Shown: positions 4,960 to 27,454 of the stretch, one piece after another
Layout of the letters: each line of letters starts with the position of its first letter
Position numbering within the stretch: position 1 is the first letter of the stretch
Virus record (IMG/VR): IMGVR_UViG_3300037504_000385
Span: 1-31,877 of that record
Direction: 5' to 3' (one strand)
Length of the DNA: 31,877 nt
Source: a virus
Made by a program: the position numbers and the translations under genes
The notes under the pieces: generated by a model
The model's input: the letters and a program-made list of their open reading frames with translations, nothing else
The model's database searches: none
Told to the model about the DNA's origin: nothing

Positions 4960-5691
4960 ATGCCGTGGACGTACGATGATCCGCCGGCAGTAGCGATCAA
5001 TTGGACGGAGGCCGAGCAGCGCCGATGTGTGGACGCGGCTAATGCGGTGCTGGAGCGGGGCGGATCGGATGAGGATGCTATTTATGCCTGTATTGCAGCG
5101 GCAGGCAAAAGGAGAGATGGGATGAAGACTAAACGATTTCAGGCGCCAATTGAGTTGAAAGAGAACTCGGACGAAACGGGCGAGTTCAGGGCGGTGTTTT
5201 CGACGTTCAACGTGATCGACCACGACCGGGACGTGACCGTTCCGGGGGCGTTTCACGACGGGGAGAAGGTGCGAGTTTCTTATTGGGGCCATCGCTGGCA
5301 AGATTTGCCTGTGGGCCGGGGTGTGATTCACCAGGACGACGAAAAAGCGTGGATCGACGGGAAATTTTTCCTGGATACCCAGGCGGGCCGCGATACCTAT
5401 CGCACGGTGAAGAACCTGGCGGAGCTACAGGAATGGAGCTATGGGTTCGACGTGGAGGAGGCCGAGTACGGCACGTTTGAAGGTGAGGACGTGCAGTTCT
5501 TGCGGAGCCTGGAAGTGTTTGAGGTGTCGCCGGTCATGCTGGGCGCCGGGATCGGGACCGGCACGACCGATATAAAAGATCGTGACAAGGCGGGCGATGA
5601 CGAAGGCGAGGCCGGGGACGGTAAGCTGAGCGGCGTCGGGCCGGACGTTGTGCGTTATCAAATTGAGATTGTTGAATTGGAGGAATCATGA
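4960..5691 (+). CDS. Prohead maturation protease (HK97/U35 type) with ChaB-like N-terminal extension
   Basis: 243 residues. Residues 1-52 (MPWTYDDPPA...NWTEAEQRRC...ACIAAAG) form a small helical extension of the type seen in ChaB-like phage proteins. The protease core begins near residue 55. The likely catalytic histidine is H111 in YWGHR and the serine S160 in EWSYGF. The enzyme removes the N-terminal delta domain of the capsid protein during head maturation. A second start, ATG at 5122 (residue 55), has an ideal AAGGAG at 5109-5114 with 7-base spacing, so a shorter protease-only product may be made. The stop overlaps the capsid start (ATGA). Confidence 0.9.
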   Translation: MPWTYDDPPAVAINWTEAEQRRCVDAANAVLERGGSDEDAIYACIAAAGKRRDGMKTKRFQAPIELKENSDETGEFRAVFSTFNVIDHDRDVTVPGAFHDGEKVRVSYWGHRWQDLPVGRGVIHQDDEKAWIDGKFFLDTQAGRDTYRTVKNLAELQEWSYGFDVEEAEYGTFEGEDVQFLRSLEVFEVSPVMLGAGIGTGTTDIKDRDKAGDDEGEAGDGKLSGVGPDVVRYQIEIVELEES

Positions 5692-7049
5692 ACATCAAGG
5701 AGTTTTTGGAGAAACTGAAGAAGCTAGGCTTGAAGGAGCTGGCGGATGGGTTGAAGGCTGCGCTCACTGAGGCGCGGGATATCTGTGACAGCGTGGACCA
5801 GGAGGACCGCGATTTCACGACCGAGGAACGGAAGATGGTCGCGGATCTGTTGGATGGCGCCAAGCAGATCAAGGCGCGGATCAAGGAAGTGCAGGACGAC
5901 CAGGCGATGCGCAAGCAGGTCCTGGAGCTGGGGCAGGGGATCGAGATCATCGACTCGAACGGCGGGCAGCCGGGCGGGAACGGGCGGAAGGCGGATCCGT
6001 TCCGCGACGAGCTGCGGTACGAGACGCTGGGTGATGCGTTCGTCAAATCGAAGGAATGGAACGACTGGCTGTCCACGGTGGCCCCGAGCGGGCACATTGC
6101 TGAGAGCCGGAAGGGACTGACGTCCCCGCCGCTGGAGTTTAAGCGGTTCGGGTTGTTTCGGAAAACGCTGGTCACCGGGTCGAGCGATACGAGCGCGGGC
6201 GCGTTCGTGGTGCCGGATTACACGGGCATTTACGAGCCGCTGGGGCGATATCCGCTGACGCTGCGGGATCTGGTGGCCGTGCGCCAAACGACCAGTGACA
6301 CGGTGGAGTTTGTGCGCCAAACGACCCAGGTCACACAGGCGGCGCCGGTGCCAGAGGCGAACGTAACGGATTACTCGGGCGCCTCGGGTGAGGTGAGCGG
6401 GGAGAAGCCGGAAGGCGCGATGGCTTTCGAGCGGGTGACCGAGAGCGTGAAGACGATCGCGGTGTGGATCCCGGCGACGAAGCGCGCGTTGTCGGATGCG
6501 ATGCAGTTGCGCGGGCTGATCGACCAGGAGCTGCGGGAGGACCTGGCGGAGGAGCTGGAAGACCAGATCCTGAACGGGAACGGGGTCGGTGAGAATTTCA
6601 CCGGGCTGGCCAACACGTCGGGGACGCTGGTGCAGGCGTTCGACACGGACATCAACGTAACCGGACGCAAGGCGATCACTAACTTGCTGCTCAACGGAAA
6701 GCAGCGTCCGACTGCCTGGCTGGTGAATCCGATGGACTGGGAGGCTATCGAGCTGCAAACCGATAGCGAGGGCCGATACTTTTGGGGCGGTCCTATGGCG
6801 CGCGGCCCGGCGACGTTCTGGGGTGTGCCGGTGGTCCAATCGTTTTTCCAGACTCAGGGCACGGCATGGCTGGGTAACTGGATGAAGGCGGTGGTCTGGG
6901 ACCGGGAGCAGGCGGGGATCAGCGTGAGTGATTCCCACGCCGACTTTTTCATCAGGAATATGATCGCTATCCTGGCGGAGATGCGGGCCGCGTTCGGTGT
7001 GATCCGGCCGAGTGGATTCGTCGAGGTGGATCTGAGCGGCGGCAGCTAG
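5688..7049 (+). CDS. Major capsid protein, HK97 fold
   Basis: 453 residues. Residues 1 to about 105 are highly charged and helical (KEFLEKLKKLG...; KEVQDDQAMRKQVLELG), the delta or scaffold domain expected to be cleaved by the preceding protease. The fold then runs through GAFVVPDYTG, strands with VPEANVTDYSG, KTIAVWIPATKRALSDA, the E-L-E-DQILNGNG loop and NPMDWEAIELQ, ending in AAFGVIRPSGFVEVDL. All are hallmarks of HK97 gp5-type capsids. No separate scaffold gene is present, consistent with the fused delta domain. A large hairpin follows 19 bases after the stop. Confidence 0.95.
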   Translation: MNIKEFLEKLKKLGLKELADGLKAALTEARDICDSVDQEDRDFTTEERKMVADLLDGAKQIKARIKEVQDDQAMRKQVLELGQGIEIIDSNGGQPGGNGRKADPFRDELRYETLGDAFVKSKEWNDWLSTVAPSGHIAESRKGLTSPPLEFKRFGLFRKTLVTGSSDTSAGAFVVPDYTGIYEPLGRYPLTLRDLVAVRQTTSDTVEFVRQTTQVTQAAPVPEANVTDYSGASGEVSGEKPEGAMAFERVTESVKTIAVWIPATKRALSDAMQLRGLIDQELREDLAEELEDQILNGNGVGENFTGLANTSGTLVQAFDTDINVTGRKAITNLLLNGKQRPTAWLVNPMDWEAIELQTDSEGRYFWGGPMARGPATFWGVPVVQSFFQTQGTAWLGNWMKAVVWDREQAGISVSDSHADFFIRNMIAILAEMRAAFGVIRPSGFVEVDLSGGS

Positions 7050-7068
7050 TTTGTCGCTTCCCCTCTAG

Positions 7069-7114
7069 ATTGGGGCTGCCTGGCGGCGCCGGCGCTTGCC
7101 CGGGCGGCCCCAAT
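7069..7114 (+). terminator. Long GC-rich hairpin after the capsid gene
   Basis: ATTGGGGCTGCC at 7069-7080 pairs with GGCGGCCCCAAT at 7103-7114 (12 pairs, one a G-T wobble) around a GC-rich loop that can fold further. No T-run follows, so it is a weak candidate for intrinsic termination. It may instead protect mRNA ends or simply be a dispersed GGGGC/GCCCC repeat like those at 13169 and 13279. Confidence 0.4.
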
Positions 7115-7120
7115 GAGGAG

Positions 7121-7144
7121 ATCCTTCGACAAGCTCAGGATGAC
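7121..7144. repeat. Dispersed TCCTTCG/CTCAGGA hairpin repeat, copy 1
   Basis: ATCCTTCGACA at the left and GCTCAGGATGAC at the right form a short hairpin (ATCCT/AGGAT). Near-identical copies lie at 13251-13274, 18612-18632 and 18637-18657, with a diverged in-frame copy at 7582-7602. The spread across intergenic gaps marks a dispersed element, probably shared with host chromosomes. Confidence 0.75.
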
Positions 7145-7151
7145 GGAATTC

Positions 7152-7195
7152 GTGGGTTAGCAGTGACGCTCCCCCCACTTACGTGGGGGGCTTCG
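7152..7195. repeat. TTAGCAGTGAC + C6/G6 hairpin repeat, copy 1
   Basis: TTAGCAGTGAC is followed by a perfect 8-bp stem CCCCCCAC-TTAC-GTGGGGGG and CTTCG. Two related copies lie at 24327-24370 and 24698-24740. This one ends 4-5 bases before the ATG of the glycosyltransferase at 7200, so its stem sits where a ribosome binding site would normally be. Confidence 0.75.
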
Positions 7196-7199
7196 GAAT

Positions 7200-8084
7200 A
7201 TGATTGTTAATGCGGTGTGTCGGAATTTTGGGGATGACCGGGTGATACCTAGGTTTGCGCGGTATCTGCGGGATTTTCTGGGCTGGCGGCTGACTAAGCG
7301 GCCGGTGGATCCGGGCCAGGTGGATGCGTATTATTTGAGCGGGTATTTTGAGGCTCAGTTTATGCGGCCGTGGCCGGAGGGGCGGCCGGTGGGGGCGTAT
7401 TTCACCCACCGGGAGGAGGAGCCGCCGGGGAATGCGAAGGCCAAGCTGTATGATAATGTGGCGGGCCGGGTGGATCTGCGGATTGCGACGGCGGCGATGT
7501 ATGCGGGGCCGCTGGTGGAGTATGGGGCGACGGCGCAGATTACGCCTCCCGTTGAACGTGGACGATTTGTGATTCCGAAGGGCCCTTCAACGGGCTCAGG
7601 GCGACTGGCGGTGGGGTTCAGCGGGTACACGTACCGGAATGGGCGGAAGGGGGAGGCGCTGGCCAGGGCGCTGGTGGGATCGAATCTGGCCAGGAAGGTG
7701 GACTGGCGGGCGTCGGGGAGGGGGTGGCCAGTGCCGACGCGGAAGTACCGGTGGGAGGAGATGCCGGGATTCTACCAGAGCCTGGACGTGCTGGTAGTGA
7801 CGAGTTCGGTGGAGGGGGTGCCGATGCCGCCGCTGGAGTGTTTGAGCTGCGGGGTTAGTGTGGTGATCCCGCGGGGCGTGGGGCTGCTGGACGAGCTGCC
7901 AGAAGAGCCTGGAATATACCGGTACGAGAAAAATCAGGCTAAATCGTGCCTTTCTGCGCTCAGGAAGGCTCTGGGAGAGCGCAGGGACGTAAATCGGGAG
8001 AAATTGAGGGAAACGACGGCGCCGTACACGATTACGGCGTGGTGTGAGCAGCACAGGCAGGCTTTTGCGGAGGTGATGTTGTGA
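7200..8084 (+). CDS. GT4-like glycosyltransferase
   Basis: 294 residues. The C-terminal half is typical of GT-B retaining glycosyltransferases: FSGYTYRNGRKG, then MPGFYQSLDVLVVTSSVEGVPMPPLECLSCGVSVVIP, which contains the E-x7-E donor-binding motif (EGVPMPPLE). The N-terminal acceptor domain is short and divergent. It should transfer a sugar from a nucleotide-sugar to an unknown acceptor. It is the first gene of a block inserted between capsid and connector genes. A dispersed hairpin repeat is read in-frame as GPSTGSGR near residue 130. No clear Shine-Dalgarno precedes the ATG; instead there is a repeat hairpin. It overlaps the next gene by GTGA. Confidence 0.8.
   Translation: MIVNAVCRNFGDDRVIPRFARYLRDFLGWRLTKRPVDPGQVDAYYLSGYFEAQFMRPWPEGRPVGAYFTHREEEPPGNAKAKLYDNVAGRVDLRIATAAMYAGPLVEYGATAQITPPVERGRFVIPKGPSTGSGRLAVGFSGYTYRNGRKGEALARALVGSNLARKVDWRASGRGWPVPTRKYRWEEMPGFYQSLDVLVVTSSVEGVPMPPLECLSCGVSVVIPRGVGLLDELPEEPGIYRYEKNQAKSCLSALRKALGERRDVNREKLRETTAPYTITAWCEQHRQAFAEVML
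7582..7602. repeat. Dispersed hairpin repeat inside a coding sequence
   Basis: GCCCTTCAACGGGCTCAGGG at 7582-7601 is a diverged copy of the TCCTTCG...CTCAGGA element and can pair GCCCT with AGGGC. It is read through in the glycosyltransferase frame as PSTGSG. It lies between the two domains, where an insertion could be tolerated. Confidence 0.6.
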
Positions 8085-8824
8085 GTCGTGGTATTTTTTG
8101 TGTGGCGTTCGGGGACCCGGCCAGGGCGTGCGCGCAACGGATGATGGAGACGGCGAAGCAGCACATGCCGGAGATTCCTATCGCGTTGTGTGGCGCGAAA
8201 AAGATCGGGATCGAGGACGTGTTCGTGAAGCAGCCGGACAGTGACATCGGCGGGCGGCGGGCCAAGTTGAAGGCTTACGAGCTGAGCCCGCAGGAATGGA
8301 CATCCGTCCTCTACCTGGATGCGGATACTGAGGTGTGCGGGGATATCCGATTCTACTTTGAGCTGATCGAGGACGGCTGGGAATTTGTAATCTGCAAAGA
8401 CCCGCATTTGATGGATACGATGCACGCCTTCCGGCGCCAGAACAACCTGGCGGAGTTGTACGAGACGGAGAGCCAGATCGTGACGCTGCACACGTTGCAG
8501 TACAACGGGGGGGTGTGGGCGTTTGGCAGGAACAAGCGGGTGGCGGCGTTTTTCGAGCGGTGGTTGATGGAGTGGGAGAAGCACGCGCAACGGGACCAAG
8601 GGGCGCTGATCCGCGCGATGTACACCGATCCGCTGAAGGTGTACGTCCTGGGCAACGAGTGGAACACGTTCGAGAAGTATACGCGGGGGATCGAGACGGC
8701 CGGGTTGATGCACTATCCGGGGCGGGCGCGGCGATGGAAGGGGATGATCCCGGGGCGGATCGATTCAGACACGGCGTGGAAGTTTGTGGAGCGTTTCGAG
8801 GCGGAGCATCGTGGCCGACGCTAA
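8081..8824 (+). CDS. GT-A glycosyltransferase (GT8-like)
   Basis: 247 residues from GTG at 8081, overlapping the preceding TGA. SVLYLDADTEV (DAD at 80-82) is the metal-binding DxD motif of GT-A enzymes. RRAKLKAYELSP before it and LQYNGGVWAFGRN, RDQGALIRAM and GLMHYPGRARRWKG after it match the architecture of GT8-like nucleotide-diphospho-sugar transferases. The substrate cannot be told. It shares a 14-base overlap with the methyltransferase downstream. Within this block it is likely part of a multi-step glycan assembly acting on a virion protein or host surface glycan. Confidence 0.75.
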   Translation: MSRGIFCVAFGDPARACAQRMMETAKQHMPEIPIALCGAKKIGIEDVFVKQPDSDIGGRRAKLKAYELSPQEWTSVLYLDADTEVCGDIRFYFELIEDGWEFVICKDPHLMDTMHAFRRQNNLAELYETESQIVTLHTLQYNGGVWAFGRNKRVAAFFERWLMEWEKHAQRDQGALIRAMYTDPLKVYVLGNEWNTFEKYTRGIETAGLMHYPGRARRWKGMIPGRIDSDTAWKFVERFEAEHRGRR

Positions 8825-9269
8825 GCTGAATTTGGGCTGTGGCGGGGACGCCCGCGAAGGATTCGTGAATCACGATTTGCGGAAGCATTCGCCGCGCGTA
8901 GACGTGGCTTGGGATTTGAACGATCTGCCCTGGCCGTGGGAGGATGAGAGTTTCGATCTGATCGTGGCTAAGGCGGTATTTGAGCATTTACGGCTGAATT
9001 TGTTGGAATCGGTGGGAGAGTGCTGGCGGGTGTTGCGGCCGGGCGGCAAATTGTGGATGAAGTTGCCGCATTGGGAGCACAATAATTCGTACCTGGATCC
9101 GACGCATTACTGGCAGTTTGCGCTGCACACACCGGACATTTTCGACCCGGAGACCCGATACGGGAAGCGGTACAATTTTTATACTGAGCGCAAATGGAAG
9201 ATCGTGAAGGGCCCCAAACTGAACCGGGCCAAGAGCTCGATCATCGTGGTAATGGAGGTACGCAAGTGA
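8811..9269 (+). CDS. SAM-dependent class I methyltransferase
   Basis: 152 residues from GTG at 8811, nested in the end of the preceding gene. LNLGCGG (residues 6-12) is motif I for S-adenosylmethionine binding. WDLNDLPWPWEDESFDLIVAKAVFEHL holds motifs II-III and CWRVLRPGGKLWMKLPHWEH the post-motif strand. This is the Methyltransf_11 pattern common in sugar and natural-product O-methylation. Given three flanking glycosyltransferases, methylation of a glycan is more likely than DNA methylation; there is no DPPY-type DNA methylase motif. It overlaps the next gene by GTGA. Confidence 0.85.
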   Translation: MADAKLNLGCGGDAREGFVNHDLRKHSPRVDVAWDLNDLPWPWEDESFDLIVAKAVFEHLRLNLLESVGECWRVLRPGGKLWMKLPHWEHNNSYLDPTHYWQFALHTPDIFDPETRYGKRYNFYTERKWKIVKGPKLNRAKSSIIVVMEVRK

Positions 9270-9955
9270 CGGATCTGGTCGTCACGACGTGCAACCGGCT
9301 GCCGCTGTTGAAGCGGACGCTCCAACACATTTGGGAGCGGACTGGTAGCCCGTACCGATTGCACTTGCTGGACGATGCATCGGACGCGCCAACGGTCGAA
9401 TATTTGCGGCGGCTGAAACACGAGGGCCGAATCGACTCGGTTTATTTTGGCAAGCGGCCGGTGGGGATCCCTGGCCAGTTGGCGCGGATCGTGCGGGTCA
9501 CGAACACTGATCCGGTGGTGTTTACGGACGACGACGTGTTGTGTCCGAAGCTGACGCCGGATTGGCTGGCGCGGGGACTGGCGGCAATGGCGCGGCACCC
9601 GCAGGTGGGCCTGCTGGCGTTGAACGGCCCGCAGTGCAATATTGACGGCAAGCGGGGGGAGATCGTGCCGCGCGGGGAGATCACGTTGTGCAGGAATATT
9701 CCCGGCTGGTTCGCGTTCGCGCGGCGGAAGGTGCTGGAAACGTGCTTGCCGGATGATGGGGTTTACTCGCCGGTGAAACAGATGTGCAAGCGGGCGAAAG
9801 AGGCCGGCTGGGAGGTGGCGTATCTGACTGAGGTGTATTGCCAGCACATTGGGGCGCGGTCGGTGCGGAACCGGAAAGATTTGCAGCCGGAGCTGGACAT
9901 GGTGCTGCCGGTCGACCCGGACACTTTGGTGCCTCCGAAGGAGTTCCGGTTTTGA
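9266..9955 (+). CDS. GT2-family glycosyltransferase
   Basis: 229 residues. GTG at 9266 has GGAGG at 9254-9258 with 7-base spacing and overlaps the methyltransferase stop. VVTTCNRLPLLKRTL opens a classic GT2 nucleotide-binding fold; LLDDASD follows and FTDDDVLCP (DDD 88-90) is the metal site. PGWFAFARRKVLE and CKRAKEAGWEVAYLTEV fit the acceptor-side region. It likely adds a sugar to a growing glycan. Translation of the next gene is coupled by a TGATG junction. Confidence 0.85.
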   Translation: MTDLVVTTCNRLPLLKRTLQHIWERTGSPYRLHLLDDASDAPTVEYLRRLKHEGRIDSVYFGKRPVGIPGQLARIVRVTNTDPVVFTDDDVLCPKLTPDWLARGLAAMARHPQVGLLALNGPQCNIDGKRGEIVPRGEITLCRNIPGWFAFARRKVLETCLPDDGVYSPVKQMCKRAKEAGWEVAYLTEVYCQHIGARSVRNRKDLQPELDMVLPVDPDTLVPPKEFRF

Positions 9956-10485
9956 TGGCGAAAGCCAAAGTGTTTGGGATCGGGCTGTCGAAAACGGGCA
10001 CGTCGTCATTGACGGCGGCGCTGAAGCGGTTGGGGTACAAGGCGAAACATTATCCTCATTTGTTCCAGGTGATCGAGACGGCCAAAAAGTGCGACGCCGT
10101 GACGGATACGCCCGTGATCGTGTATTTCGAGGCGTTAGACCGGCTATGGCCCACGGCGAAATTTATCTTGACGGTGCGGGACGAGGATGAATGGATCGAT
10201 TCGTGCCGACGGCATTACGCCAAGAAACCGGTGAGCAAGATCATGGCCTGGAAGCTGCGGAATCGGCGGGCGGTGTACGGGATGAACGGATTCGACGCGG
10301 CGCATTTCTGCCAGGTGGCCAGGACCCACCGGAAGCGGGTGGAGGCGCATTTTGCGGATCGGCCGGGGAAGCTGCTGGTGCTGGATATTTGCGCAGGCGA
10401 GGGGTACGAGCGGCTGTGTCCGTTTTTGGGATTGCCGGTGGTGAAAGAAAAGTTTCCGCATAAAAACATTGGGAGGACGTCGTGA
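9955..10485 (+). CDS. Sulfotransferase-like protein
   Basis: 176 residues. GIGLSKTGTSSL (residues 8-19) resembles the 5'-phosphosulfate loop of PAPS sulfotransferases. AKFILTVRDEDEWIDS (68-83) resembles the 3'-phosphate site (R75, S83), and the end FPHKNIG is also typical of the Sulfotransfer_4-like group. It would move a sulfate from PAPS to a glycan or protein. It is shorter than many family members but both cofactor sites are visible. ATG at 9955 shares a base with the upstream TGA. Its presence after the sugar genes suggests a sulfated surface glycan, which is inference. Confidence 0.75.
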   Translation: MAKAKVFGIGLSKTGTSSLTAALKRLGYKAKHYPHLFQVIETAKKCDAVTDTPVIVYFEALDRLWPTAKFILTVRDEDEWIDSCRRHYAKKPVSKIMAWKLRNRRAVYGMNGFDAAHFCQVARTHRKRVEAHFADRPGKLLVLDICAGEGYERLCPFLGLPVVKEKFPHKNIGRTS

Positions 10486-11144
10486 GCAAAGGAATCATTT
10501 TGATAGGCCGGGACGATACGATCGAGGGAAAGGCCAGCAGCTCGGGGCTGGCGGTGGATTGTCCCTCGTACATTCCCCAGGACAAGCTGCCTTTCGATAA
10601 AAACTTGATCGTTCAGGCGGGGACGCGGGTGCCGTGGGATTTGTTGCCGGCGGCGTGGCATTTTTTGGAGCGTTGGGATGCGGCGGTCCCGTTGTGGCGG
10701 TATGGGGTCACGGCGGCGGATGTAGGATCGGACCAGGAGCGTCGCTTGACCAAAAAAGTGGTGCGAGATCTGCGGGTGCTTTTGCATTCTACCGAGCTGG
10801 TATTTGTGAGACGCAACCAGGCGGGCCAGGAGCTGGTTTCTGCGTGGCGGGAAGAGCAAAAAGTGGGGAAAAATCCACGGTTGGCTTTTCTACGGGCATT
10901 CTACAGAGTGAAGCCGCGTTTGTGCGTGCTGCCGACGTCGTGGATGGCGGAGATCCGGCAGCGGGAGCGGCAGGAGGCGGTGGCGCATCGAGGCCGGCAG
11001 TCTCCAAATGCGGGCCGGCCGCTGGTGCTGGTGGAGCTGGGCCCGGGCCGGTTCGTGAAGTGTCACAAGGGGGATGAGGAGCGAGTGCGGGAGCATTTTG
11101 CGCGGCAGCGGGCGGCAGGGCGAGCAGGAAGGGGGCGACGATAA
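10482..11144 (+). CDS. Unknown 220-residue protein of the glycan block
   Basis: Not recognised. GTG at 10482 overlaps the sulfotransferase stop, with GGGAGG about 8 bases upstream. The start MSKGIILIGRDDTI has a short hydrophobic strand, and the middle is basic. The end contains PLVLVELGPGRFVKCHKGDEERV, which resembles GPLVKVEIRPGQFVKMYKED in the next gene, so the two share a short module. It may belong either to the glycan block or to the head proteins that follow. No catalytic motif or membrane segment is seen. Confidence 0.6.
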   Translation: MSKGIILIGRDDTIEGKASSSGLAVDCPSYIPQDKLPFDKNLIVQAGTRVPWDLLPAAWHFLERWDAAVPLWRYGVTAADVGSDQERRLTKKVVRDLRVLLHSTELVFVRRNQAGQELVSAWREEQKVGKNPRLAFLRAFYRVKPRLCVLPTSWMAEIRQRERQEAVAHRGRQSPNAGRPLVLVELGPGRFVKCHKGDEERVREHFARQRAAGRAGRGRR

Positions 11145-11551
11145 TGCCAGTGGTGACGAGCTCGGACAATTGGCCGGTGGATAGCCAGGAGACGCGGAGG
11201 AAGCGGGGGCCGCTGGTGAAGGTGGAGATCCGGCCGGGGCAGTTTGTGAAGATGTATAAAGAGGATGCGATCCGGGAGGGACACATGGAGCCGGATAAGA
11301 AGAAAAAGCAGCCGCCGAAGGACAAGCTGCGGAAGCCGAAGCGTGACAAGGCTGCTGCTGAGGAGAAAGAGGAAGAGCCGGAGCCCGATGATTTTACGGT
11401 GATCTCGGGAGTGGGGCCGGCTACGGCGCGGGCGCTGGTGGCGCATGGTATCGTGACGTTGGAGCAGTTGCGGACGGCCGGGGAGCTCACCTATTTGAAC
11501 GAGGGGATCAACCGGTCGATCGAGGAGTGGAGGGCAAGCGGTGGAGCCTAG
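11144..11551 (+). CDS. Helix-hairpin-helix protein of the head module
   Basis: 135 residues. Residues 22-41 carry the short module shared with the preceding protein. Residues 50-82 are a lysine- and glutamate-rich linker. Residues 87-110 (ISGVGPATARALVAHGIVTLEQL) are a clear helix-hairpin-helix, which binds DNA backbone non-specifically. In phages this class appears between capsid and connector genes and may be a minor head or DNA-contact protein. Start ATG at 11144 shares its A with the upstream TAA. The next gene starts inside its end. Confidence 0.75.
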   Translation: MPVVTSSDNWPVDSQETRRKRGPLVKVEIRPGQFVKMYKEDAIREGHMEPDKKKKQPPKDKLRKPKRDKAAAEEKEEEPEPDDFTVISGVGPATARALVAHGIVTLEQLRTAGELTYLNEGINRSIEEWRASGGA

Positions 11552-11813
11552 TCGATTCAAAGAGCAGAATGGTTCATTGGGTGCGCCGCAGAATTTCGAC
11601 CCGGAACAATCGGAGGCGGCCAGCGAGATCGTCTCGTTGCCGGTATTCAGTGATGGAGAGCAGTGCATCTCGTTATGGCGGATGTCGTGGCGGGAGCGGT
11701 TGTCGGCGCTGTTGTTTGGACGGGTCTGGCTCCAGGTATTGAGTGGTCCCACGCAACCACCCGTGGCCTTGACGACGGCTCGGACCATTTTTGAGGAGCA
11801 GGACGGTGGCTAA
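11541..11813 (+). CDS. Small conserved phage protein
   Basis: 90 residues from GTG at 11541, overlapping the preceding gene by 11 bases. The conserved-looking core CISLWRMSWRERLSALLFGRVWLQVLSGPTQPPVAL is a basic amphipathic stretch seen in unnamed proteins of many siphoviruses. It might be a short membrane-associated helix, but arginines make that uncertain. It is coupled to the connector gene that follows. Function unknown. Confidence 0.65.
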   Translation: MEPSRFKEQNGSLGAPQNFDPEQSEAASEIVSLPVFSDGEQCISLWRMSWRERLSALLFGRVWLQVLSGPTQPPVALTTARTIFEEQDGG

Positions 11814-12420
11814 TTTTGCCGAGGTGGCGGACATCGAGGCGTTCTTGCAGGTGGAGATTTCGACGGCGGTGCAGATCGCCAGCGCCACGCGGGCGCTGGA
11901 GGAGGCGACGACGGCGATCAAGAATTACACCGAGCAGTATATCGAGCTGGTGGAGGATGAGGAGATCACGATTGATACGATCGGCGGGACGCGGATTTTC
12001 TTGCCAGAATTGCCGGTGGTGTCGGTGGCAAGCGTGATCGAGGACGGAAATACGCTGACAGCGGACGACGATTACAAGCTGGGCCAGCACGGGATTTTGT
12101 ACCGGATCGGTGGGGACGAATGGCCGGACGATATTCAGGCGGTGACGATTACGTACACACACGGGTACGCGACGATTCCCGACGATATCGTGAAGGTGGC
12201 CACCCGGGCGGCGTCCAGGGCGTACCAGGCGGGGTTGAGGGCGGCGGAGAGCGAGGCGGTGCTGGGGGTGGCGTCGAAGTCGTTGGGTGATTTCTCGGTG
12301 AGTTTCGGTTCGGAGTCGGGCGGCGGCGTGGGGGAGGGGATCATGGGGGCGTCGGCGGCGCGGTTCCTTTTGATGTCGGAAAAAGATATCCTGGACAAAT
12401 TCAGGTTGCGGTCGGTGTAA
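11806..12420 (+). CDS. Head-tail connector protein (gp6-like adaptor)
   Basis: 204 residues from GTG at 11806, with GAGGAG at 11793-11798 and 7-base spacing. It begins with helices including EVADIEAFLQ and TRALEEATTAIKNYTEQYIE. A beta segment follows: RIFLPELPVVSVASVIEDGNTL, then YRIGGDEWPDDIQAVTITYTHGY. It closes with helices KVATRAASRAYQAGL. This is the adaptor layout of HK97 gp6/SPP1 gp15, which docks under the portal. The downstream genes are the next expected joining proteins. Confidence 0.8.
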   Translation: MANFAEVADIEAFLQVEISTAVQIASATRALEEATTAIKNYTEQYIELVEDEEITIDTIGGTRIFLPELPVVSVASVIEDGNTLTADDDYKLGQHGILYRIGGDEWPDDIQAVTITYTHGYATIPDDIVKVATRAASRAYQAGLRAAESEAVLGVASKSLGDFSVSFGSESGGGVGEGIMGASAARFLLMSEKDILDKFRLRSV

Positions 12421-12771
12421 ATGAGCGTATTTGAGAGCCTACTGAATAATACGTTTGCGGTCGAGAGGCGGCGGCGGAGCCCGGACGGCCAGGGGGGCTG
12501 GGCGATCGATTACGTGGCGATCGGGTCGGTGGTGGGGCGGATGCGGCCGGCCGGGAGCCGGGAGCAGGATATTGCGGATCTGGAGAGCCGGGAGATTACG
12601 CACGTGTTGTACGTGGTGGCCAGTGCGAATATTGTGCGGGGGGACCGGGTTAGCGTCGGAGATTTGACGGTGGAGGTGGAGGGGATCCGGGAGCCGTCAC
12701 TGGCGGGACATCATTTGGAGATCGATTGTAGGGAAGTGCAGCCGGAGCAGGCGGTCGGAGTGGGTAGCTGA
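12421..12771 (+). CDS. Head closure (stopper) protein
   Basis: 116 residues, starting directly after the preceding stop. NTFAVERRRRSPDGQGGWAIDYVAIGSVVGRMRPAGSRE, then THVLYVVASANIVRGDRVSVGDLTVEVEGIREPS, follows the phage head-tail joining (SPP1 gp16-like) beta-barrel pattern. The protein would seal the connector channel. The stop overlaps the next ATG. Confidence 0.8.
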   Translation: MSVFESLLNNTFAVERRRRSPDGQGGWAIDYVAIGSVVGRMRPAGSREQDIADLESREITHVLYVVASANIVRGDRVSVGDLTVEVEGIREPSLAGHHLEIDCREVQPEQAVGVGS

Positions 12772-13351: not shown

Positions 13352-13591
13352 ATGGTGGCTGAGTTGGCGACCAGGTTGTGGGTGGTGGGGAAATTGGTGC
13401 CGGGTGAGATGTGGGAGTTTGTGGGGTTGTTCGACGAGGAGGCGGCGGCGGTGGGGGCTTGCAGGTCTGAGGCGTATTTTGTGGCGCCGGTGAATTTGAA
13501 TGTTCCGGCGCCGGAGGAACAGACGGTATGGCCGGGGGCTTATTATCCCCTGGCGGCGGACTGTGGTCCGCTGGGAGCTGATGATTTGTGA
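13352..13591 (+). CDS. Small phage protein of unknown function
   Basis: 79 residues from ATG at 13352, or GTG at 13355, which has better spacing to GGAGG at 13344-13348. TRLWVVGKLVPGEMWEFVGLFDEEAAAVGAC, then YFVAPVNLN and WPGAYYPLA, resembles unnamed proteins seen among tail genes of other siphoviruses. Near its end a palindrome GCGGACTGTGGTCCGC (13556-13571) is read as ADCGP and recurs outside genes at 15173. It overlaps the next start. Confidence 0.65.
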   Translation: MVAELATRLWVVGKLVPGEMWEFVGLFDEEAAAVGACRSEAYFVAPVNLNVPAPEEQTVWPGAYYPLAADCGPLGADDL

Positions 13592-14004
13592 GCGTTTTGA
13601 CGCAGGCGATTTACGATCAACTGGTGGCGGATGGGACGCTGGTGGGGTTGCTGGCGACGTATAATGGCAATCCGGCGGTGTTTACGACGGACCCGGCGCC
13701 GGGGGATGCTTCGTTGCCGTATATCGTGACGGCGGGGGAGGTGTCGCAGGCGCCGTTCGATACGAAGCTGACGCGCGGGCGGGATGCGATCCGGGACGTG
13801 CGGTGTTATGCGGAGGCGGACGGGAGTGTGGTGACGATCGAGGCGATTGCGGAGCGGGTGCGGGCGTTGTTGCACCGGCAGGCGTTGAGCATCGATGGAT
13901 ACGATTGGATTATGTCGGAGTGTACCGGCCCGATCGTGGCTGATGAACTGGACACGTATGGCCGGATTATTAGTGTGAGCGTAGTCGCTCAACAGGAGGA
14001 TTAG
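13588..14004 (+). CDS. Tail completion/terminator protein (DUF3168-like)
   Basis: 138 residues from GTG at 13588. It begins VLTQAIYDQLVADGTLVGLL, continues VFTTDPAPGDASLPYIVTAGE and RDVRCYAEADG, and ends with GRIISVSVVAQ. These are the helix and strand elements of the DUF3168/lambda gpU-like family that caps the tail tube. It lies immediately before the major tail protein, as expected. Confidence 0.8.
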   Translation: MSVLTQAIYDQLVADGTLVGLLATYNGNPAVFTTDPAPGDASLPYIVTAGEVSQAPFDTKLTRGRDAIRDVRCYAEADGSVVTIEAIAERVRALLHRQALSIDGYDWIMSECTGPIVADELDTYGRIISVSVVAQQED

Positions 14005-14007
14005 ATC

Positions 14008-14415
14008 ATGGGTATGAATGGAACTGACGTATTGCTGCTGGCGAATACCGGGACGCCCAGCGTGCCGGCCTACGCGGCGGTCGGGTCGCAACGGGATGCT
14101 TCCATCGAGGAGGCTAACGAGACGATCGACGTGTCGAGCAAGGATCAGCGGGAGCAGCGAGTGCTGCCCGGCCGGTATTCGAGCACGATCTCGTTGGACG
14201 CGCTGTACGTGCCGACGGATTCGGCTTACCAGGCGTTGAAGGACGCGATGCGGGACGGGGAGCTGATCCTGGTGGCGGTGGAGCGGGAGGGGACGGTGAT
14301 CGAGACCTGCGACGCGAACGTGGATTCGATCTCGGAGAGCTTTCCGGACCAGGGCGAGGCGACGATCTCGGTGGCGCTGACGGTGGACGGCGCGTGGACT
14401 GAGGTGTCGAGCTAA
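14008..14415 (+). CDS. Major tail tube protein
   Basis: 135 residues, start ATG at 14008 with a strong AGGAGG at 13994-13999, consistent with high expression. GTDVLLLANTG, DVSSKDQREQRVLPGRYSSTISLDALY and SFPDQGEATISVALTVDGAW match the TP901-1/HK97-type tube protein family. Hexamers stack around the tape measure to form the tail tube. Shorter than many homologues but without visible truncation. Confidence 0.85.
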   Translation: MGMNGTDVLLLANTGTPSVPAYAAVGSQRDASIEEANETIDVSSKDQREQRVLPGRYSSTISLDALYVPTDSAYQALKDAMRDGELILVAVEREGTVIETCDANVDSISESFPDQGEATISVALTVDGAWTEVSS

Positions 14416-18591: not shown

Positions 18592-18693
18592 TCAGTCAAA
18601 CGTGATGCGTGTCCTTCGACGGGCTCAGGATGTGTATCCTTCGACGGGCTCAGGATGATATACTTATTTTAGTTTGTTGGAAGGTTGGGAATT
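18592..18693. repeat. Intergenic gap with heptads and two hairpin repeats
   Basis: Heptads GTCAAAC-GTGATGC-GTGTCCT at 18595-18615 are followed by two TCCTTCGACGGGCTCAGGAT copies at 18612 and 18637, spaced 25 bases apart. An AT-rich stretch (18657-18678) and GGAAGG (18679-18684) precede the next gene, so a promoter could lie here. Confidence 0.65.
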
Positions 18694-19716: not shown

Positions 19717-20880
19717 ATGAGCTATGAGTTGTATTTGCGGCAATATGAAAAGACCGGAGCGGTGAAGCACGCTTACGTGCCGGCACTGTGGGCGCGTTAC
19801 ACAGAGAGCGTGAATGATCAGTATCCGCTGGTGTATGCGTTGAATTTCGACGCGGACGCGGCGCAGGATCTGGCGGAGTTTGACGTCGTCGAGGTGTTGG
19901 TGCGGAATCAGGCGCTGGGTATCGACGATTTCGAGCGGGCGTTTGTCGGGATCGTGCGGGATTGGGCGCCGCAGACGGACGAGGACGGGATTACGAGCCT
20001 GGTGGTGACGGCGCCGAATGAGAAGTCTATTTTGTCGTGGCGGCACGTGTTATGGGCGGCGGGGACGAATAGACGCAGTGATTACACGGGGGTCGAGGCG
20101 GAGACGATCATGAAGGAGGTTGTCGAGTACAATTTCACGGCTGACGCCTCGGTGGCCAACGGGCGGTGGCGGGAGGGGGATCTGGCGGGGATGGGGTTGC
20201 GCATCTCGATTGCGACGGATCAGGCCAGGGGGAATACGCTCTCGGCAGCGTTCATGGGTAAGAATTGCTTGGATATTCTGCAACGAATCGCCGTCCAGGG
20301 GGGCGGCGATTTTGATCTGGCCTGGCAGGGATATGACAGCGGATCGGGGTACAACGAATGGGAGTTTGAGTTTTATCCGGATCAGTTGGGGGAGGATAAG
20401 TCGAGCGGTGCCAGCCGGGTTTTGTTCGCGCTGGAGAACAATACGATGCGGGAGCCACGGCTGCGGCGGATGGGGGCTGGGGCGACGGTGGCTATCGCGG
20501 CCGGGCAGGGGGAGGGCGCGGCGCGGGATACGAGCGAGGTGGAGGGCCCGGATTACGCGGCGGATTATGACATCGAGACGTTCGTGGATGCGAGGAGCGA
20601 GGATACGGCGGCTGGCCGGGAATTCCGCGGCGGGAAACGGCTGGATGAATTGCGGGTGTGGAAAGAATTGACGCTCGGGGTGCAACAGACGGGGGATATT
20701 TTCTACTCACCGGTGGACGTGACGGGCCGGAAGACGTACCGGGCGGGGGATCTGGTGCTGGTGAGTTACGCGGGCGTGGAGCAGGTGCGGAAAATTACGA
20801 GAGTGAGGGTGGATTGGGACGTGGCGCAGTCGGACAACCGTTTCAGTGTGGAGGTGGAGGCGCGCGAGTGCGATGAATGA
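19717..20880 (+). CDS. Tail protein, ReqiPepy6 Gp37-like
   Basis: 387 residues. YPLVYALNFDADAAQDLAEFDVVEVLVRNQALGID, FVGIVRDW, VVTAPNEKSILSWRHVLWAAGTNRRSDYTGVEAETIMKEVVEYN and LDILQRIAVQGGGDFDL are typical of the Gp37-like siphovirus tail proteins. These are hub-like tail-tip proteins with a gp27-type fold. GDLVLVSYAGVEQVRKITRVRV near the end fits the same group. It overlaps the tail fibre start by 8 bases. Confidence 0.8.
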   Translation: MSYELYLRQYEKTGAVKHAYVPALWARYTESVNDQYPLVYALNFDADAAQDLAEFDVVEVLVRNQALGIDDFERAFVGIVRDWAPQTDEDGITSLVVTAPNEKSILSWRHVLWAAGTNRRSDYTGVEAETIMKEVVEYNFTADASVANGRWREGDLAGMGLRISIATDQARGNTLSAAFMGKNCLDILQRIAVQGGGDFDLAWQGYDSGSGYNEWEFEFYPDQLGEDKSSGASRVLFALENNTMREPRLRRMGAGATVAIAAGQGEGAARDTSEVEGPDYAADYDIETFVDARSEDTAAGREFRGGKRLDELRVWKELTLGVQQTGDIFYSPVDVTGRKTYRAGDLVLVSYAGVEQVRKITRVRVDWDVAQSDNRFSVEVEARECDE

Positions 20881-23263
20881 GCTGTCGGATTTGCTGAGCG
20901 GATTTACAGAGCGGTTCCAGGACGTGGAGCGGCGGCTGATCGACCTGGAGACGCTGGAGGGCATTCCGGCAGGCGGGACGGCGCCGGCGGATGCGCCGTT
21001 CGTGACGGTGGCCAACGACGCCGGGCTGACGCACGAGCGGGCACTGGCGGCGACGTTGCCGCTGGAGCTGGCAGACGGCGGCGCGAATGGGTCGCTGACG
21101 GTGCAGTTTGAGGATCAGGCGGCGAACACGGTGCTGGCGGGGCCAGCGGCCGGGGCGGACGCGGCGCCGGATTTCAGGGCTCTGGTGGCCGGGGATGTGC
21201 CGGCGCTGGGTGGGACGCCGGCGCTGACGCTGGGGACGGCGAACTCGCCTGGGGTGGCGACGACGTATATCCGGACGGATGATACGATTTTGGTGTTCGA
21301 TGCGACGAATCCGGCGCAGTTGACGCCGGATATTGCGGCGGCGCCGGGCAGCGCGTCCGTGGCGGCGCGCAGGGACCACGTGCATAATGTGCCGGCGGAT
21401 GCGCCCACGGGCACGATCACGGAGGCGACGGCCAACGCGGAGGGGGCAGCGGCTTCCTTTGCACGCAGCGATCACACGCACGATATCGACGTGAGCGCCA
21501 CACGCGCCCCGGCCGATGCGCAGTACGTGGTGTTGGCGCTGGATGGGGCGCTATCGGCGGAACGGGTGCTGGTTGCTGGGGACGGGCTTGATCTGACGGA
21601 CGGCGGCGCGAATGGGAACGCAACGCTGACCGTAGATGTAACAGATTTTATTGGCGCTGGATTGGATGAAACGGCTAATAATATCTTTATCGGCACGCCC
21701 AGCGCAGTGACGGTATCATCAGCAAGCGGTGCATCGGGCACAACGCATACGCACGCCGCCACCACCAGTTCAAGCCCCGGCGCGGCGGCCAGTATCCTGG
21801 CAAGTGCTGCGGATGGCGGTCTGCAACTGTTGCGGTTGGGGATAGGCGCTGATCCTGATACCAACAACCGGCTGACAATTGTAGATGGCGGCACGCTGGG
21901 CAATGGCGTCCTTTTGACATTTGATGACACCGGGAATAGCCTTGAGTTGACTGGCGGAGCTCTGCATTTGTACAGCGGCAACGACTTGGTTGGCTACAGT
22001 GACGCTGGCACGACCGAGACATTACGATTGGATACCAGCGCGGGTTATATCGGAGTGGCAGATAGGCTGTACCATACTGGCGACACAGATACATATCTCG
22101 CATTCACTAGCGACAAAATCACGCTGCGCGCCGGCGGGCTGGATATGATCGAGATTGTCGAGGGCTCCAGCGACTATGTGCTCTTTAATGTAAAAGCTGA
22201 TCTCGACGGCAATATCCTAACTCTGGACGCAGGCGGTGGAGCAGGGCTGTGGGGCTCGGCGCCCAATGTGATTTCCGTGATCCTGGGGGGCACGGTTGAT
22301 TTTACTTTTTCTGCAAATGAATTTAACATATTGACCGGCAGCCGTATTGATCTGCAATCCGGTTCATGGATCAGTATGGCGAACGGGACGTATATCGGCA
22401 ATTCGAGCGCCGGACCTTTCCTGACCTTTGATAATAGCGCTAATAGACTCGAACTAGCAGGTGGGGAGATGTCATGCTACAGCCAGGATCTGGTATTGTA
22501 TTCTGATCTTGGCACGACGGAAAAAGCACGTATTGATGCGTCGAGTGGCGATATTACATTGGCCGACGGGGCCAGCATCGGCAATAGCGGCGGGCCGACG
22601 ATTACGTTTGATGATACGAATGATTATTTTGAGTTCAGTGGCGGGGATGCGTTGATTGGCCCAACAGCTCCGTACACAAGAAGTGTATTCTCGGATAGAG
22701 TAATAGCCGTTGGTGCAACTGGGGCATCTGAAAGAGCGCAACTGGAAATTATAGGCAATCTTACTAATGATGCGCTGGTGGCTGGAATATCGTTCCACAA
22801 TACTTCGTCTAGCGCATCCGACAAGAGGATATCGCAAATAAGCGTAAGGCGCGATGGAGACAACGATGCAGGCCGTATTAGATTTTCGACCTGGAACTCT
22901 TCCGCGACCGCTCAGAATGTATTAGACATTACATCAAACACGAATATTGGCATCAATACTACGTCACAATTCGGCTCCGGCGCGGGCGTCATCGGGCTAG
23001 CCAACGCTGGCACGAATCCGAGCAGCAATCCGACCGGCGGCGGGGTGTTGTATGCTGATAGCGGCGCGTTGAAATGGCGCGGCAGCAGCGGGACCACAAC
23101 TACCATCGCCAACGCCGAACCACACTGTCCGGTGTGTGGCCGGGACGCTGTGATGGAATGGCGCAACGATGACCAGGCGTGGCACATTGAAATGTGCGTG
23201 TGGTGCCTGGCAGATGAGTTGGGGCAGCGCAATTGGATAAAGAAAGAGCAGTTACATGCCTGA
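20873..23263 (+). CDS. Tail fibre / receptor-binding protein with zinc-ribbon-like end
   Basis: 796 residues from ATG 20873. Residues 1-30 are a coiled coil (ELSDLLSGFTERFQDVERRLIDLE). Two related modules, APADAPFVTVAND...LADGGANGSLTV and APADAQYVVLALD...LTDGGANGNATLTV, show an internal duplication. Three H-x-H motifs (DHVHN, DHTHD, THTHA, near residues 168, 201 and 292) recall metal sites of T4 gp12-type fibres. The central part is repeats such as LTFDDTGNSLELTGG and LTFDNSANRLELAGG, likely a beta-helix. The C-terminus has CPVC...CVWC, unusual for a fibre. Bases about 21,630-22,980 look AT-richer than the flanks, suggesting module exchange. Confidence 0.8.
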   Translation: MNELSDLLSGFTERFQDVERRLIDLETLEGIPAGGTAPADAPFVTVANDAGLTHERALAATLPLELADGGANGSLTVQFEDQAANTVLAGPAAGADAAPDFRALVAGDVPALGGTPALTLGTANSPGVATTYIRTDDTILVFDATNPAQLTPDIAAAPGSASVAARRDHVHNVPADAPTGTITEATANAEGAAASFARSDHTHDIDVSATRAPADAQYVVLALDGALSAERVLVAGDGLDLTDGGANGNATLTVDVTDFIGAGLDETANNIFIGTPSAVTVSSASGASGTTHTHAATTSSSPGAAASILASAADGGLQLLRLGIGADPDTNNRLTIVDGGTLGNGVLLTFDDTGNSLELTGGALHLYSGNDLVGYSDAGTTETLRLDTSAGYIGVADRLYHTGDTDTYLAFTSDKITLRAGGLDMIEIVEGSSDYVLFNVKADLDGNILTLDAGGGAGLWGSAPNVISVILGGTVDFTFSANEFNILTGSRIDLQSGSWISMANGTYIGNSSAGPFLTFDNSANRLELAGGEMSCYSQDLVLYSDLGTTEKARIDASSGDITLADGASIGNSGGPTITFDDTNDYFEFSGGDALIGPTAPYTRSVFSDRVIAVGATGASERAQLEIIGNLTNDALVAGISFHNTSSSASDKRISQISVRRDGDNDAGRIRFSTWNSSATAQNVLDITSNTNIGINTTSQFGSGAGVIGLANAGTNPSSNPTGGGVLYADSGALKWRGSSGTTTTIANAEPHCPVCGRDAVMEWRNDDQAWHIEMCVWCLADELGQRNWIKKEQLHA

Positions 23264-23645
23264 TGAGATGAGATACTATCCCCTCACTGGCGATCAGTGG
23301 GGTTTGTTTGTGGATGGGACCGAATTAGTTTTTGATACAATAGTGGAGGTAATGAGATCTATGAGCAAAATTACATTTGCTTCTCAGGCGCAATCGGCGG
23401 CGGCTCGGTTGGCGGCGGTGATTGATGATCTGGAGAGTTTGAGCAGTGTGTATTACGACCGGGGATATGATAGCGGCGGCGCCGACGCGATCGCTGACGC
23501 GGACGTGGAGGCGCTGGGCTTGGCTGCGGCTGAGCTCACTGCGTTCGTGACGATGGCGGATCAATTGACGAATTTTAGAGATAATCTCGCTGTTACGACA
23601 GGAGATTATGGAGCGACGATAAATCAAGTGAGGGACGACGTATGA
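23256..23645 (+). CDS. Small protein at the end of the tail module
   Basis: 129 residues from ATG 23256, overlapping the fibre stop by 8 bases. Residues from MSKITFASQAQSAAARLAAVIDDLESLSSVYYDRGYDSGG onward resemble a widespread short phage protein found beside fibre genes. The first 35 residues may be an added segment, because ATGs at 23352 and 23361 follow GGAGG (23345-23349). Function unknown; perhaps fibre-associated. Confidence 0.65.
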   Translation: MPDEMRYYPLTGDQWGLFVDGTELVFDTIVEVMRSMSKITFASQAQSAAARLAAVIDDLESLSSVYYDRGYDSGGADAIADADVEALGLAAAELTAFVTMADQLTNFRDNLAVTTGDYGATINQVRDDV

Positions 23646-23902
23646 AAAATGATAATGGCGCGGCGATAGATGGGGTTGCAAGGAAGCAGTTGATCGAGAA
23701 TAAGATCACGTTGTGGCGGAATACGATTTATGATGCGGAGTTGGACGCGCGGGTGGCGGATGCGTTGGGTAAGGAGGCAGCGTCCGAGCAGGCTCAGGAG
23801 CGGATGAAGGAGGCGATGCAGGCGGTGGAGTTGCTGGAAGGTATGTTGGATGAGTTGGAACGTGAAGCGGAAAAACCTGTCAGGTCCAAAAACCAGACCT
23901 GA
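23642..23902 (+). CDS. Small coiled-coil protein, last gene of the rightward operon
   Basis: 86 residues from ATG 23642 (ATGA overlap). Almost entirely charged helix (ARKQLIENKITLWRNTIYDAELDARVADAL; QERMKEAMQAVELLEGMLDELEREAE), consistent with a coiled coil. Its last codons and stop lie inside the terminator hairpin. Position suggests a fibre chaperone or tail accessory; this is inference only. Confidence 0.65.
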   Translation: MKNDNGAAIDGVARKQLIENKITLWRNTIYDAELDARVADALGKEAASEQAQERMKEAMQAVELLEGMLDELEREAEKPVRSKNQT

Positions 23903-23911
23903 CAGGTTTTT
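23871..23911. terminator. Bidirectional intrinsic terminator between convergent operons
   Basis: AAAAACCTGTCAGGTC (23871-23886) and GACCTGACAGGTTTTT (23896-23911) make a perfect 16-bp inverted repeat with a 9-base loop. It gives a T-run in both directions. The stop codon of the upstream gene (23900-23902) lies in the stem. It closes the rightward late operon and faces the leftward one. Confidence 0.9.
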
Positions 23912-23955
23912 GGGCCTTGAGCTGGCCATCGATGGCGAGCTCAGCGCCCCAATTT
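23912..23955. repeat. Near-perfect palindrome at the operon junction
   Basis: GAGCTGGCCATC followed by GATGGCGAGCTC forms a 24-base palindrome with one mismatched pair, then GCGCCCCAAT, a member of the GCCCCAAT dispersed family. It may be an additional terminator arm or a protein site. Confidence 0.5.
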
Positions 23956-24114
23956 TTAGTTGCAGGGGATCTGGGCGAGTATTATTATCCAGGTGATGAT
24001 GATCAGGGTGATGAGGGTGAGGGCGGCTATTAGGAAGGCGGGGTCGGCCCACCAGGGGGTTGGGTCGTGGCGGGGGCGCGGGTTTCTGGGTTTGGGTAGT
24101 TTTTTGCGGGTCAT
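23956..24114 (-). CDS. Small single-span membrane protein
   Basis: 52 residues. A basic, proline-rich N-terminus (MTRKKLPKPRNPRPRH) is followed by one strong membrane helix (about 26-47, AFLIAALTLITLIIITWIII). The ATG overlaps the stop of the upstream 65-residue gene (ATGA on the minus strand), which supports this start. It is the last leftward gene before the terminator. A holin or other lysis accessory is possible from size and topology but cannot be shown. Confidence 0.55.
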   Translation of the reverse strand: MTRKKLPKPRNPRPRHDPTPWWADPAFLIAALTLITLIIITWIIILAQIPCN

Positions 24115-24308
24115 TTTTGGCCTTTCGTTTGTAGGTGTTGTTTCCAGAGGGTGTGTTGGTTTTGCCAGAGGATGGCGATGGGTCGCCAGCCTCGGGCGGT
24201 GTGGTCGGGCAGGTCCTCGTAGAGGATGGTTTTGATTTCGATCTCGCCGGGTCGGGGGATCGGTAGGGGGAGTTGGGTTTTTCCGTTGGTTTTGCTGTTT
24301 TTGGCCAT
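24111..24308 (-). CDS. Small hypothetical protein
   Basis: 65 residues: MAKNSKTNGKTQLPLPIPRPGEIEI, then LPDHTARGWRPIAILWQNQHTLWKQHL. Not recognised. No membrane segment or cysteine. It is coupled to the membrane protein downstream by ATGA and lies 18 bases after a TTAGCAGTGAC hairpin repeat. The Shine-Dalgarno is weak. Confidence 0.5.
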   Translation of the reverse strand: MAKNSKTNGKTQLPLPIPRPGEIEIKTILYEDLPDHTARGWRPIAILWQNQHTLWKQHLQTKGQK

Positions 24309-24326
24309 TTTGGTTAGCGCCCCGTC

Positions 24327-24370
24327 GTGGGTTAGCAGTGACTGCTCCCCCCACTTACGTGGGGGGTTTC
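24327..24370. repeat. TTAGCAGTGACTGCT + C6/G6 hairpin repeat, copy 2
   Basis: Contains the palindrome AGCAGT-G-ACTGCT and the stem CCCCCCAC-TTAC-GTGGGGGG. The stop codon of the HNH gene lies in the hairpin loop. With copy 3 it brackets that gene in direct orientation. Confidence 0.8.
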
Positions 24371-24681
24371 TTTGGGTCGGCGCTGGCGTCGACGTCGGCC
24401 GGATCTGGCCCCAAACGGGCCTGGAGCCAGGCGGGGAGGGCGATGCCGGGTAGGGGTTGCTGGCCGGGGATGTAGCGGGCCTGGATGTGGAGGTGGCAAC
24501 GCTGGCAGAGGGCGACGAGGTTGGCGTTGGTGCAGTTGGCTTTGTCGCCGTCGAGGTGGTGGACGGTGAGGATGTGGTTGGTGGCGGGGTCGTGGGGATG
24601 GCCGCAGTGTTCGCAGTGCCAGTTGGCGGCGTTTTTGATGCGGGTGGATATTTCTTTCCAGTTGGGCGGGTAGTCGGACAT
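24355..24681 (-). CDS. HNH endonuclease bracketed by hairpin repeats
   Basis: 108 residues. WHCEHCGHPH, LTVHHLDGDKANCTNANLVALCQRCHLHIQARY gives two CxxC pairs, the HH, the central N and the final H of a zinc HNH nuclease. The C-terminal 35 residues (LPAWLQARLGPDPADVDASADPKK...) are a flexible tail that ends inside repeat copy 2. Repeat copy 3 lies 16 bases upstream of the start, so the whole gene sits between direct copies of a 43-base element. This could be a free-standing homing-type gene or a small cassette. AAAGGAT precedes the ATG. Confidence 0.85.
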   Translation of the reverse strand: MSDYPPNWKEISTRIKNAANWHCEHCGHPHDPATNHILTVHHLDGDKANCTNANLVALCQRCHLHIQARYIPGQQPLPGIALPAWLQARLGPDPADVDASADPKKPPT

Positions 24682-24697
24682 GGTTCATCCTTTTTCT

Positions 24698-24740
24698 GGG
24701 TTAGCAGTGACTGCTCCCCCCTCTCACGAGGGGGGCTTCG
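24698..24740. repeat. TTAGCAGTGACTGCT + C6/G6 hairpin repeat, copy 3
   Basis: As copy 2, but the stem is CCCCCCTC-TCAC-GAGGGGGG: both sides of the stem changed together, so pairing is preserved. This compensatory change argues that the folded form matters. Confidence 0.8.
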
Positions 24741-24875
24741 TTTGCGGCCCCGAGTTGGTCTATTGTACCATATTTTAGGTCATTTGTTCTTTTTTTGTGG
24801 TTGTGGTATGATTTCGGCGCGGCTGGTGTGAGTTTTGTCCTCTCCCCCCCAGGAGCTCACACCCGCCGTTTTTCG
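24741..24875 (-). promoter_or_regulatory. Candidate leftward promoter and hairpin in a gene-free gap
   Basis: On the minus strand TACAAT (plus 24762-24767) within an AT-rich stretch could be a -10 for the HNH gene; no good -35 is seen. To its right GGTGTGAG (about 24828) pairs with CTCACACC (about 24858), a possible terminator of the gene ending at 24876. Weak evidence. Confidence 0.3.
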
Positions 24876-25082: not shown

Positions 25083-25084
25083 GG

Positions 25085-25318: not shown

Positions 25319-25338
25319 TTGATGCGTTTCCTCCTTGT

Positions 25339-25414: not shown

Positions 25415-25419
25415 GTTTT

Positions 25420-26805: not shown

Positions 26806-26806
26806 C

Positions 26807-27020: not shown

Positions 27021-27021
27021 G

Positions 27022-27228: not shown

Positions 27229-27241
27229 TGTATTTAGCCTC

Positions 27242-27450: not shown

Positions 27451-27454
27451 GTGA

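Follow-up and report, generated by a model that had tools for sequence, protein, structure and literature searches.

What does a tailed phage gain from a compact set of glycan-modifying genes placed between its capsid and connector genes, and on which molecule do the encoded enzymes act? The window analyzed here is a complete IMG/VR record (31,877 bases) of an uncultured virus of bacteria and represents the late module of a tailed phage, with genes for terminase, portal, prohead protease, capsid, connector proteins, major tail protein and tape measure. Six genes (7200-11144) lie between the gene for the HK97-fold major capsid protein (5688-7049; Phage_capsid, E 1e-44; phrog_10) and that for the head-tail adaptor, or connector (11791-12420; phrog_442, E 2e-34). 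Together with two small genes, they fill the interval between the capsid gene end at 7049 and the adaptor start at 11791. All features described are on the plus strand.

In order, the block encodes a GT4-type glycosyltransferase (7200-8084; Glycos_transf_1, E 1e-6, above the cut-off; Glyco_trans_1_4), a GT8-type glycosyltransferase (8081-8824; Glyco_transf_8, E 9e-4), a SAM-dependent methyltransferase (8811-9269; Methyltransf_11, E 4e-10), a GT2 glycosyltransferase (9266-9955; Glycos_transf_2, E 6e-12), a sulfotransferase (9955-10485; Sulfotransfer_4, E 2e-33, 116 bits, cut-off 22.8) and a sixth protein, gp10482 (10482-11144), which has no Pfam or PHROGs family. The Pfam matches and an AlphaFold model of the GT8 protein bear out the first-pass annotation, which had recognized three glycosyltransferases, a methyltransferase and a sulfotransferase-like protein. 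It had also assigned the glycosyltransferases to different folds; they represent three families but only two folds (GT-B for GT4, GT-A for GT8 and GT2). The sulfotransferase combines its domain match with a putative PAPS-binding loop (SKTGTSSL). Based on the sequence, the most likely starts of the methyltransferase and GT2 genes are GTG codons at 8811 and 9266, which overlap the GT8 and methyltransferase stops, respectively. Every junction in the block thus overlaps by 1-14 nt, in agreement with the tight coupling noted at first, and the six genes are predicted to be translationally coupled. A scan of positions 5600-12500 gave no sigma-70-like promoter (1.6 expected by chance), which carries little weight for non-model hosts.

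A search with the capsid protein recovered 37 related IMG/VR loci, and nearly all of those of sufficient length have the same gene order. Alignment queries with gp10482 and GT8 recovered 126 and 115 stretches, respectively, of which the best 80 of each were retained; merging these with the capsid loci by shared 150-mers gave at least 99 groups. Among the deduplicated groups, 97 of 99 contain cassette genes, always on one strand, which is that of the late genes. The capsid gene is directly upstream of the cassette in 64 of the 69 groups with a testable flank, and a connector/adaptor gene is downstream in 62 of 64. Three of the five groups with no capsid gene upstream are contigs that begin within the cassette, while the other two have non-homologous head genes: in L156 a phrog_1005 capsid gene and neck-like genes precede the cassette, and in L187 it is located between a different terminase type and an SPP1-type portal. 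This placement suggests transfer of the cassette between non-homologous morphogenesis modules, each time into a position among structural genes. In every testable relative, including these two, it occurs only within the head-tail structural module. Among cultured phages, cluster N mycobacteriophages such as Mycobacterium phage Charlie have the nearest capsids (about 47% identity); they lack the block and have the capsid gene, a single 77-aa gene and then the head-tail adaptor, so the cassette does interrupt the usual capsid-to-connector order, as had been proposed. Recurrence of the cassette gene order across about 100 distinct viral groups rules out a chance arrangement or ORF artefact, and the block is no moron confined to a single genome, given a core that is nearly universal in the lineage.

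That core is apparent from gene content across the 47 spans that are complete from capsid to adaptor: 45 of them have GT4, GT8 and gp10482 together, while the remaining two encode an alternative set of intact GT8-type enzymes and Methyltransf_24 proteins. In many relatives GT4 and GT8 are fused into one protein. The variable part of the cassette, which includes the GT2 and sulfotransferase slots of the window, consists of GT2s, methyltransferases, sugar-nucleotide enzymes and two kinds of sulfotransferase (methyltransferase in 38 spans, sulfotransferase in 19, GT2 in 12, Methyltransf_24 in 12), with UDP-glucose-dehydrogenase-like or epimerase genes added in single phages. A sulfotransferase of either family is present in 33 of 99 groups. 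Sulfotransfer_4 relatives of the window's enzyme score far above the Pfam cut-off; the Sulfotransfer_3-type proteins, most of them scoring weakly and below it, have in common a loop of the form RSGGTFLAHCLSNHP. As a query for related loci, the window's sulfotransferase retrieved just one, the near-identical L040; those of other loci were identified through synteny and the Sulfotransfer_3-like proteins of L007 and L008. Since sulfation and methylation are predicted repeatedly among the relatives, they do not appear to be peculiar to this genome.

The GT8 protein of the window has a Pfam score of 19.3, below the Glyco_transf_8 cut-off of 24.3. Its AlphaFold model (pLDDT 88) has a GT-A fold and matches glycogenin and alpha-1,3-GalT (Z 15-16), and the sequence has an intact DAD and the C-terminal metal-binding His; D[AV]D and this His occur in 74 of 74 GT8 proteins of the cassettes. 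The enzyme therefore resembles glycogenin and the GT8 family in its GT8-type DXD, C-terminal His and structure (glycogenin, Z 15.7), although sequence identity is only about 18%. Taken alone, it could act on another substrate.

The sixth protein, gp10482, is the most unusual member of the block and was left unnamed in the first-pass annotation. Alignments and an AlphaFold model (pLDDT 87) describe it as a truncated GT-A core with no DXD, followed by a C-terminal hairpin-helix tail. In L003, L004, L016 and L017 the product of the gene in the same position resembles GT8 and retains DAD or DAE, and the three of these with a complete end (L003, L016, L017) bear the same C-terminal tail as gp10482. 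Comparison of gp10482 with the intact positional orthologues by hhalign (99.6%, E 1e-23) aligned DADT to QAGT, and its Foldseek and VIA matches are GT-A enzymes. The top structural rows are a chlorovirus PBCV-1 capsid-glycan glycosyltransferase and GT6-type enzymes (Z 9.7 to 9.1), the best being the PBCV-1 protein (2p72; Z 9.7, 3.1 A, 136 residues). The hhalign result and the fold search rule out an unrelated head protein. The DXD motif is present in 0 of 72 gp10482 proteins compared with 74 of 74 GT8 proteins. The tail domain (11016-11117; RPLVLVELGPGRFVKCHKGDEERV...) contains the motif LVxVEIxPGRFVKC, whose sole other occurrence, as PLVKVEIRPGQFVKMYKED, is in the small protein that precedes the adaptor (11144-11551); this protein has a C-terminal helix-hairpin-helix (DNA_pol_lambd_f / HHH_5), and in L006 it is fused to gp10482. 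Distance matrices for 28 loci, uncorrected for phylogeny, show that gp10482 is co-inherited with GT8 (rho 0.60) and GT4 (0.55) and not with the methyltransferase (-0.10). On the simplest reading of these alignments and models, gp10482 would be catalytically dead yet conserved, working together with GT4 and GT8 and docking through its tail.

Loss of the DXD alone is no proof of inactivity, as metal-independent GT-A enzymes exist, and one of them (BoGT6a, PDB 4ayj) is among the structural matches of gp10482. The protein might then be an active, metal-independent glycosyltransferase of a cassette that still glycosylates virions, a view that overlaps our main reading and competes with the adaptor step only. 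The GT-A fold and the strong conservation of the second half (mean 0.72 at residues 51-155) fit with this possibility, but the nucleotide (donor-binding) region is about 30 residues shorter than in the GT8 model and poorly conserved (0.43 at residues 1-40), residues at the DXD position are free to vary, and the protein lacks the His motif that GT8 has at its C-terminus. We therefore regard an active gp10482 as unlikely, though less so than the alternative targets considered below.

The presence of these genes at the same location in about a hundred related viruses suggests that they probably serve to decorate the virus's own particles with a custom sugar chain. We have good, if incomplete, confidence that the block is a self-contained virion-glycosylation cassette in which the pseudo-glycosyltransferase would serve as adaptor. 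The late-operon position, the coupling and the capture by unrelated head modules favor virion proteins over the host surface or DNA, as do the lack of transmembrane segments in the window's cassette proteins (no 19-residue stretch with KD > 1.6) and of hydroxymethylase partners in 20 records searched. Phage-encoded glycosyltransferases standing among structural genes, as in this block, are also expected of a phage virion glycosylation system. The soluble enzymes would be expressed late, alongside the head genes, and would build the glycan in the host cytoplasm on a particle protein, with the capsid protein or a neighboring surface protein as candidate acceptor; the gene neighborhood suggests co-expression and does not point to the acceptor. 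GT4 and GT8, often a single fused polypeptide, would make the conserved glycan core, GT2 may extend it, and the methyltransferase and sulfotransferase may cap it. With donor and metal binding presumably lost, gp10482 would serve GT4 and GT8 as adaptor or specificity subunit, and its C-terminal hairpin, common to the small connector-side protein, may tie the enzymes to the assembling particle.

The first-pass annotation had named changed host-surface sugars as the alternative to virion glycans. Enzymes of this type could alter the cell-surface glycan of an infected or lysogenic host, for example in superinfection exclusion. Surface polysaccharide synthesis commonly uses sulfotransferases and glycosyltransferases, and the relatives are at least partly temperate, with tyrosine integrases on two of the four MAG contigs that bear gp10482. 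In the loci seen, however, the coupled cassette always resides within the head-tail module and not beside an integrase, the window's block lacks the membrane proteins and flippase-like components that a surface-polysaccharide system would have, and the unrelated head modules that captured the cassette again hold it among structural genes. Serotype-converting cassettes of the Gtr type (gtrABC) likewise consist of sugar transferases carried by phages, but they need a membrane flippase and membrane glycosyltransferases and lie near the integrase, whereas the block has neither membrane proteins of this kind nor integrase proximity. The virion is thus the better supported of the two targets, and modification of the host surface seems improbable. 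Hypermodification of phage DNA, in which the glycosyltransferases would act on modified bases as the T4 glucosyltransferases do on DNA, is very improbable given the poor fit of a sulfotransferase and of the head-module location and the lack of a thymidylate-synthase-type hydroxymethylase in 20 records, many of them fragments (control genomes gave matches); TET/JBP searches of records that were often fragments also gave 0 matches, as did their positive control.

Virion glycosylation in phages has so far been known from a few mycobacteriophages. In Che8, Corndog and Myrna, phage-encoded glycosyltransferases put glycans on capsid and tail-tube proteins (Freeman et al. 2023, as cited in PMC12363180 and PMC11256854), and in the F1 relative Maravista the glycosyltransferase genes are located close to the genome's 3' end (PMC11256854). 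The block is similar in encoding its own glycosyltransferases and differs in being a core-plus-decoration cassette between capsid and connector, with a methyltransferase, a sulfotransferase and a pseudo-glycosyltransferase. GT4, GT8 and gp10482 had no tblastn match in 50,697 records of a cultured-phage collection, and thus no detectable homology to the Che8/Corndog/Myrna glycosyltransferase lineage. Another parallel is the capsid N-glycan pathway of PBCV-1 (A064R, A111/114R, A061L; PMC9614988, PMC7826918), in which the virus likewise supplies its own enzymes and does not depend on host secretory glycosylation; it also has multidomain glycosyltransferase fusions, a conserved core glycan with virus-specific decorations, and O-methylation of the terminal sugar. 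A sulfotransferase is never mentioned in the chlorovirus review. The structure 2p72, the best structural row of gp10482, comes from this system; PBCV-1 is an unrelated algal virus, and the likeness is one of structure. We know of no pseudo-glycosyltransferase in the PBCV-1 pathway, and literature searches on phage sulfotransferases and on pseudo-glycosyltransferases found nothing on point.

If our reading is correct, the fixed place of a core-plus-decoration cassette among the head-operon genes of some hundred uncultured phage groups would make virion glycosylation a lineage-wide trait. With a predicted sulfotransferase in one third of the groups, these would be the first known predicted sulfated virion glycans in phages; to our knowledge there is no earlier case. 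In their logic, the variable slots are reminiscent of antigenic surface sugars and raise the question of what selects for them outside animal hosts, with adhesion, particle stability, mucus or sediment binding, and protection as candidate forces. The conserved pseudo-glycosyltransferase provides a concrete protein with which to study how a phage steers soluble glycosyltransferases to one acceptor.

The first-pass annotation had implied an actinobacteriophage setting, which is not supported. The nearest cultured capsids are indeed those of actinophages, but only at 47% identity. Four MAG contigs contain gp10482, each within the same block, and their bins are Anaerolineae, Anaerolineales, Dehalococcoidia and Zixibacteria. 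By this binning only, the host is likely Chloroflexota-like. A broader proposal, which we advance tentatively and with somewhat more doubt than belief, is that tailed phages forming a large uncultured lineage, with probable hosts among Chloroflexota and their neighbors, bear capsids with sulfated and methylated glycans that would have a shared core and strain-specific decoration, and that the dead glycosyltransferase became an adaptor that docks on the virion and brings the active enzymes to it. Within the class of the Anaerolineae-binned MAG, gp10482 is matched in 3 of 396 genomes, that MAG included.

Four related viral loci (L003, L004, L016 and L017) carry, in place of the cassette, an alternative one that encodes Methyltransf_24 and GT8-type proteins and in which GT4 has no match. 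The capsids of these phages are at most 72% identical to that of the window. Since capsids this similar to the window's are accompanied by the alternative cassette, cassette type and capsid are exchanged among these phages.

The variable slot, where the gene content of the cassette changes, holds in the related locus L007 a 200-amino-acid protein (U_L007, 13580-14194) that is without a Pfam family and, counted with its homologues, recurs in 12 groups. Additional genes occupy the interval between the pseudo-GT and the connector in L031 (5371-7646), L127 (6796-10658), L131 (8674-11070) and L042 (11314-13982). Their products include a Gp80-type fibre/head protein and proteins with weak beta-helix and polysaccharide-lyase-like matches, and are possible particle surface proteins that could serve as alternative acceptors.

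The pseudo-GT tail (window 11016-11117) and a segment of the next small protein (11210-11266) have a short hairpin motif in common, which was not found in any other protein of these phages. By eye, the small gp7 of Mycobacterium phage Charlie, at the equivalent position, resembles this motif (VVINGVETTLQLTDEDAAARGLL).

None of the eight ORFs examined in window 20846-31877 has a Pfam match, and no integrase was recognised among them; in contrast, tyrosine integrases are present in two MAG contigs carrying the same block.

A REP-like repeat, CCTTCGACA[A/G]GCTCAGGA with at most one mismatch per copy, occurs at window 7123-7140, 18613-18630 and 18638-18655 (chance expectation, 0), and was absent from the related loci when looked for there. 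The first copy is intergenic, between the capsid gene and GT4, while the other two form a tandem pair 3' of a tail gene. GT4 itself seems to contain a diverged copy, translated in frame (peptide GPSTGSGRLAV).
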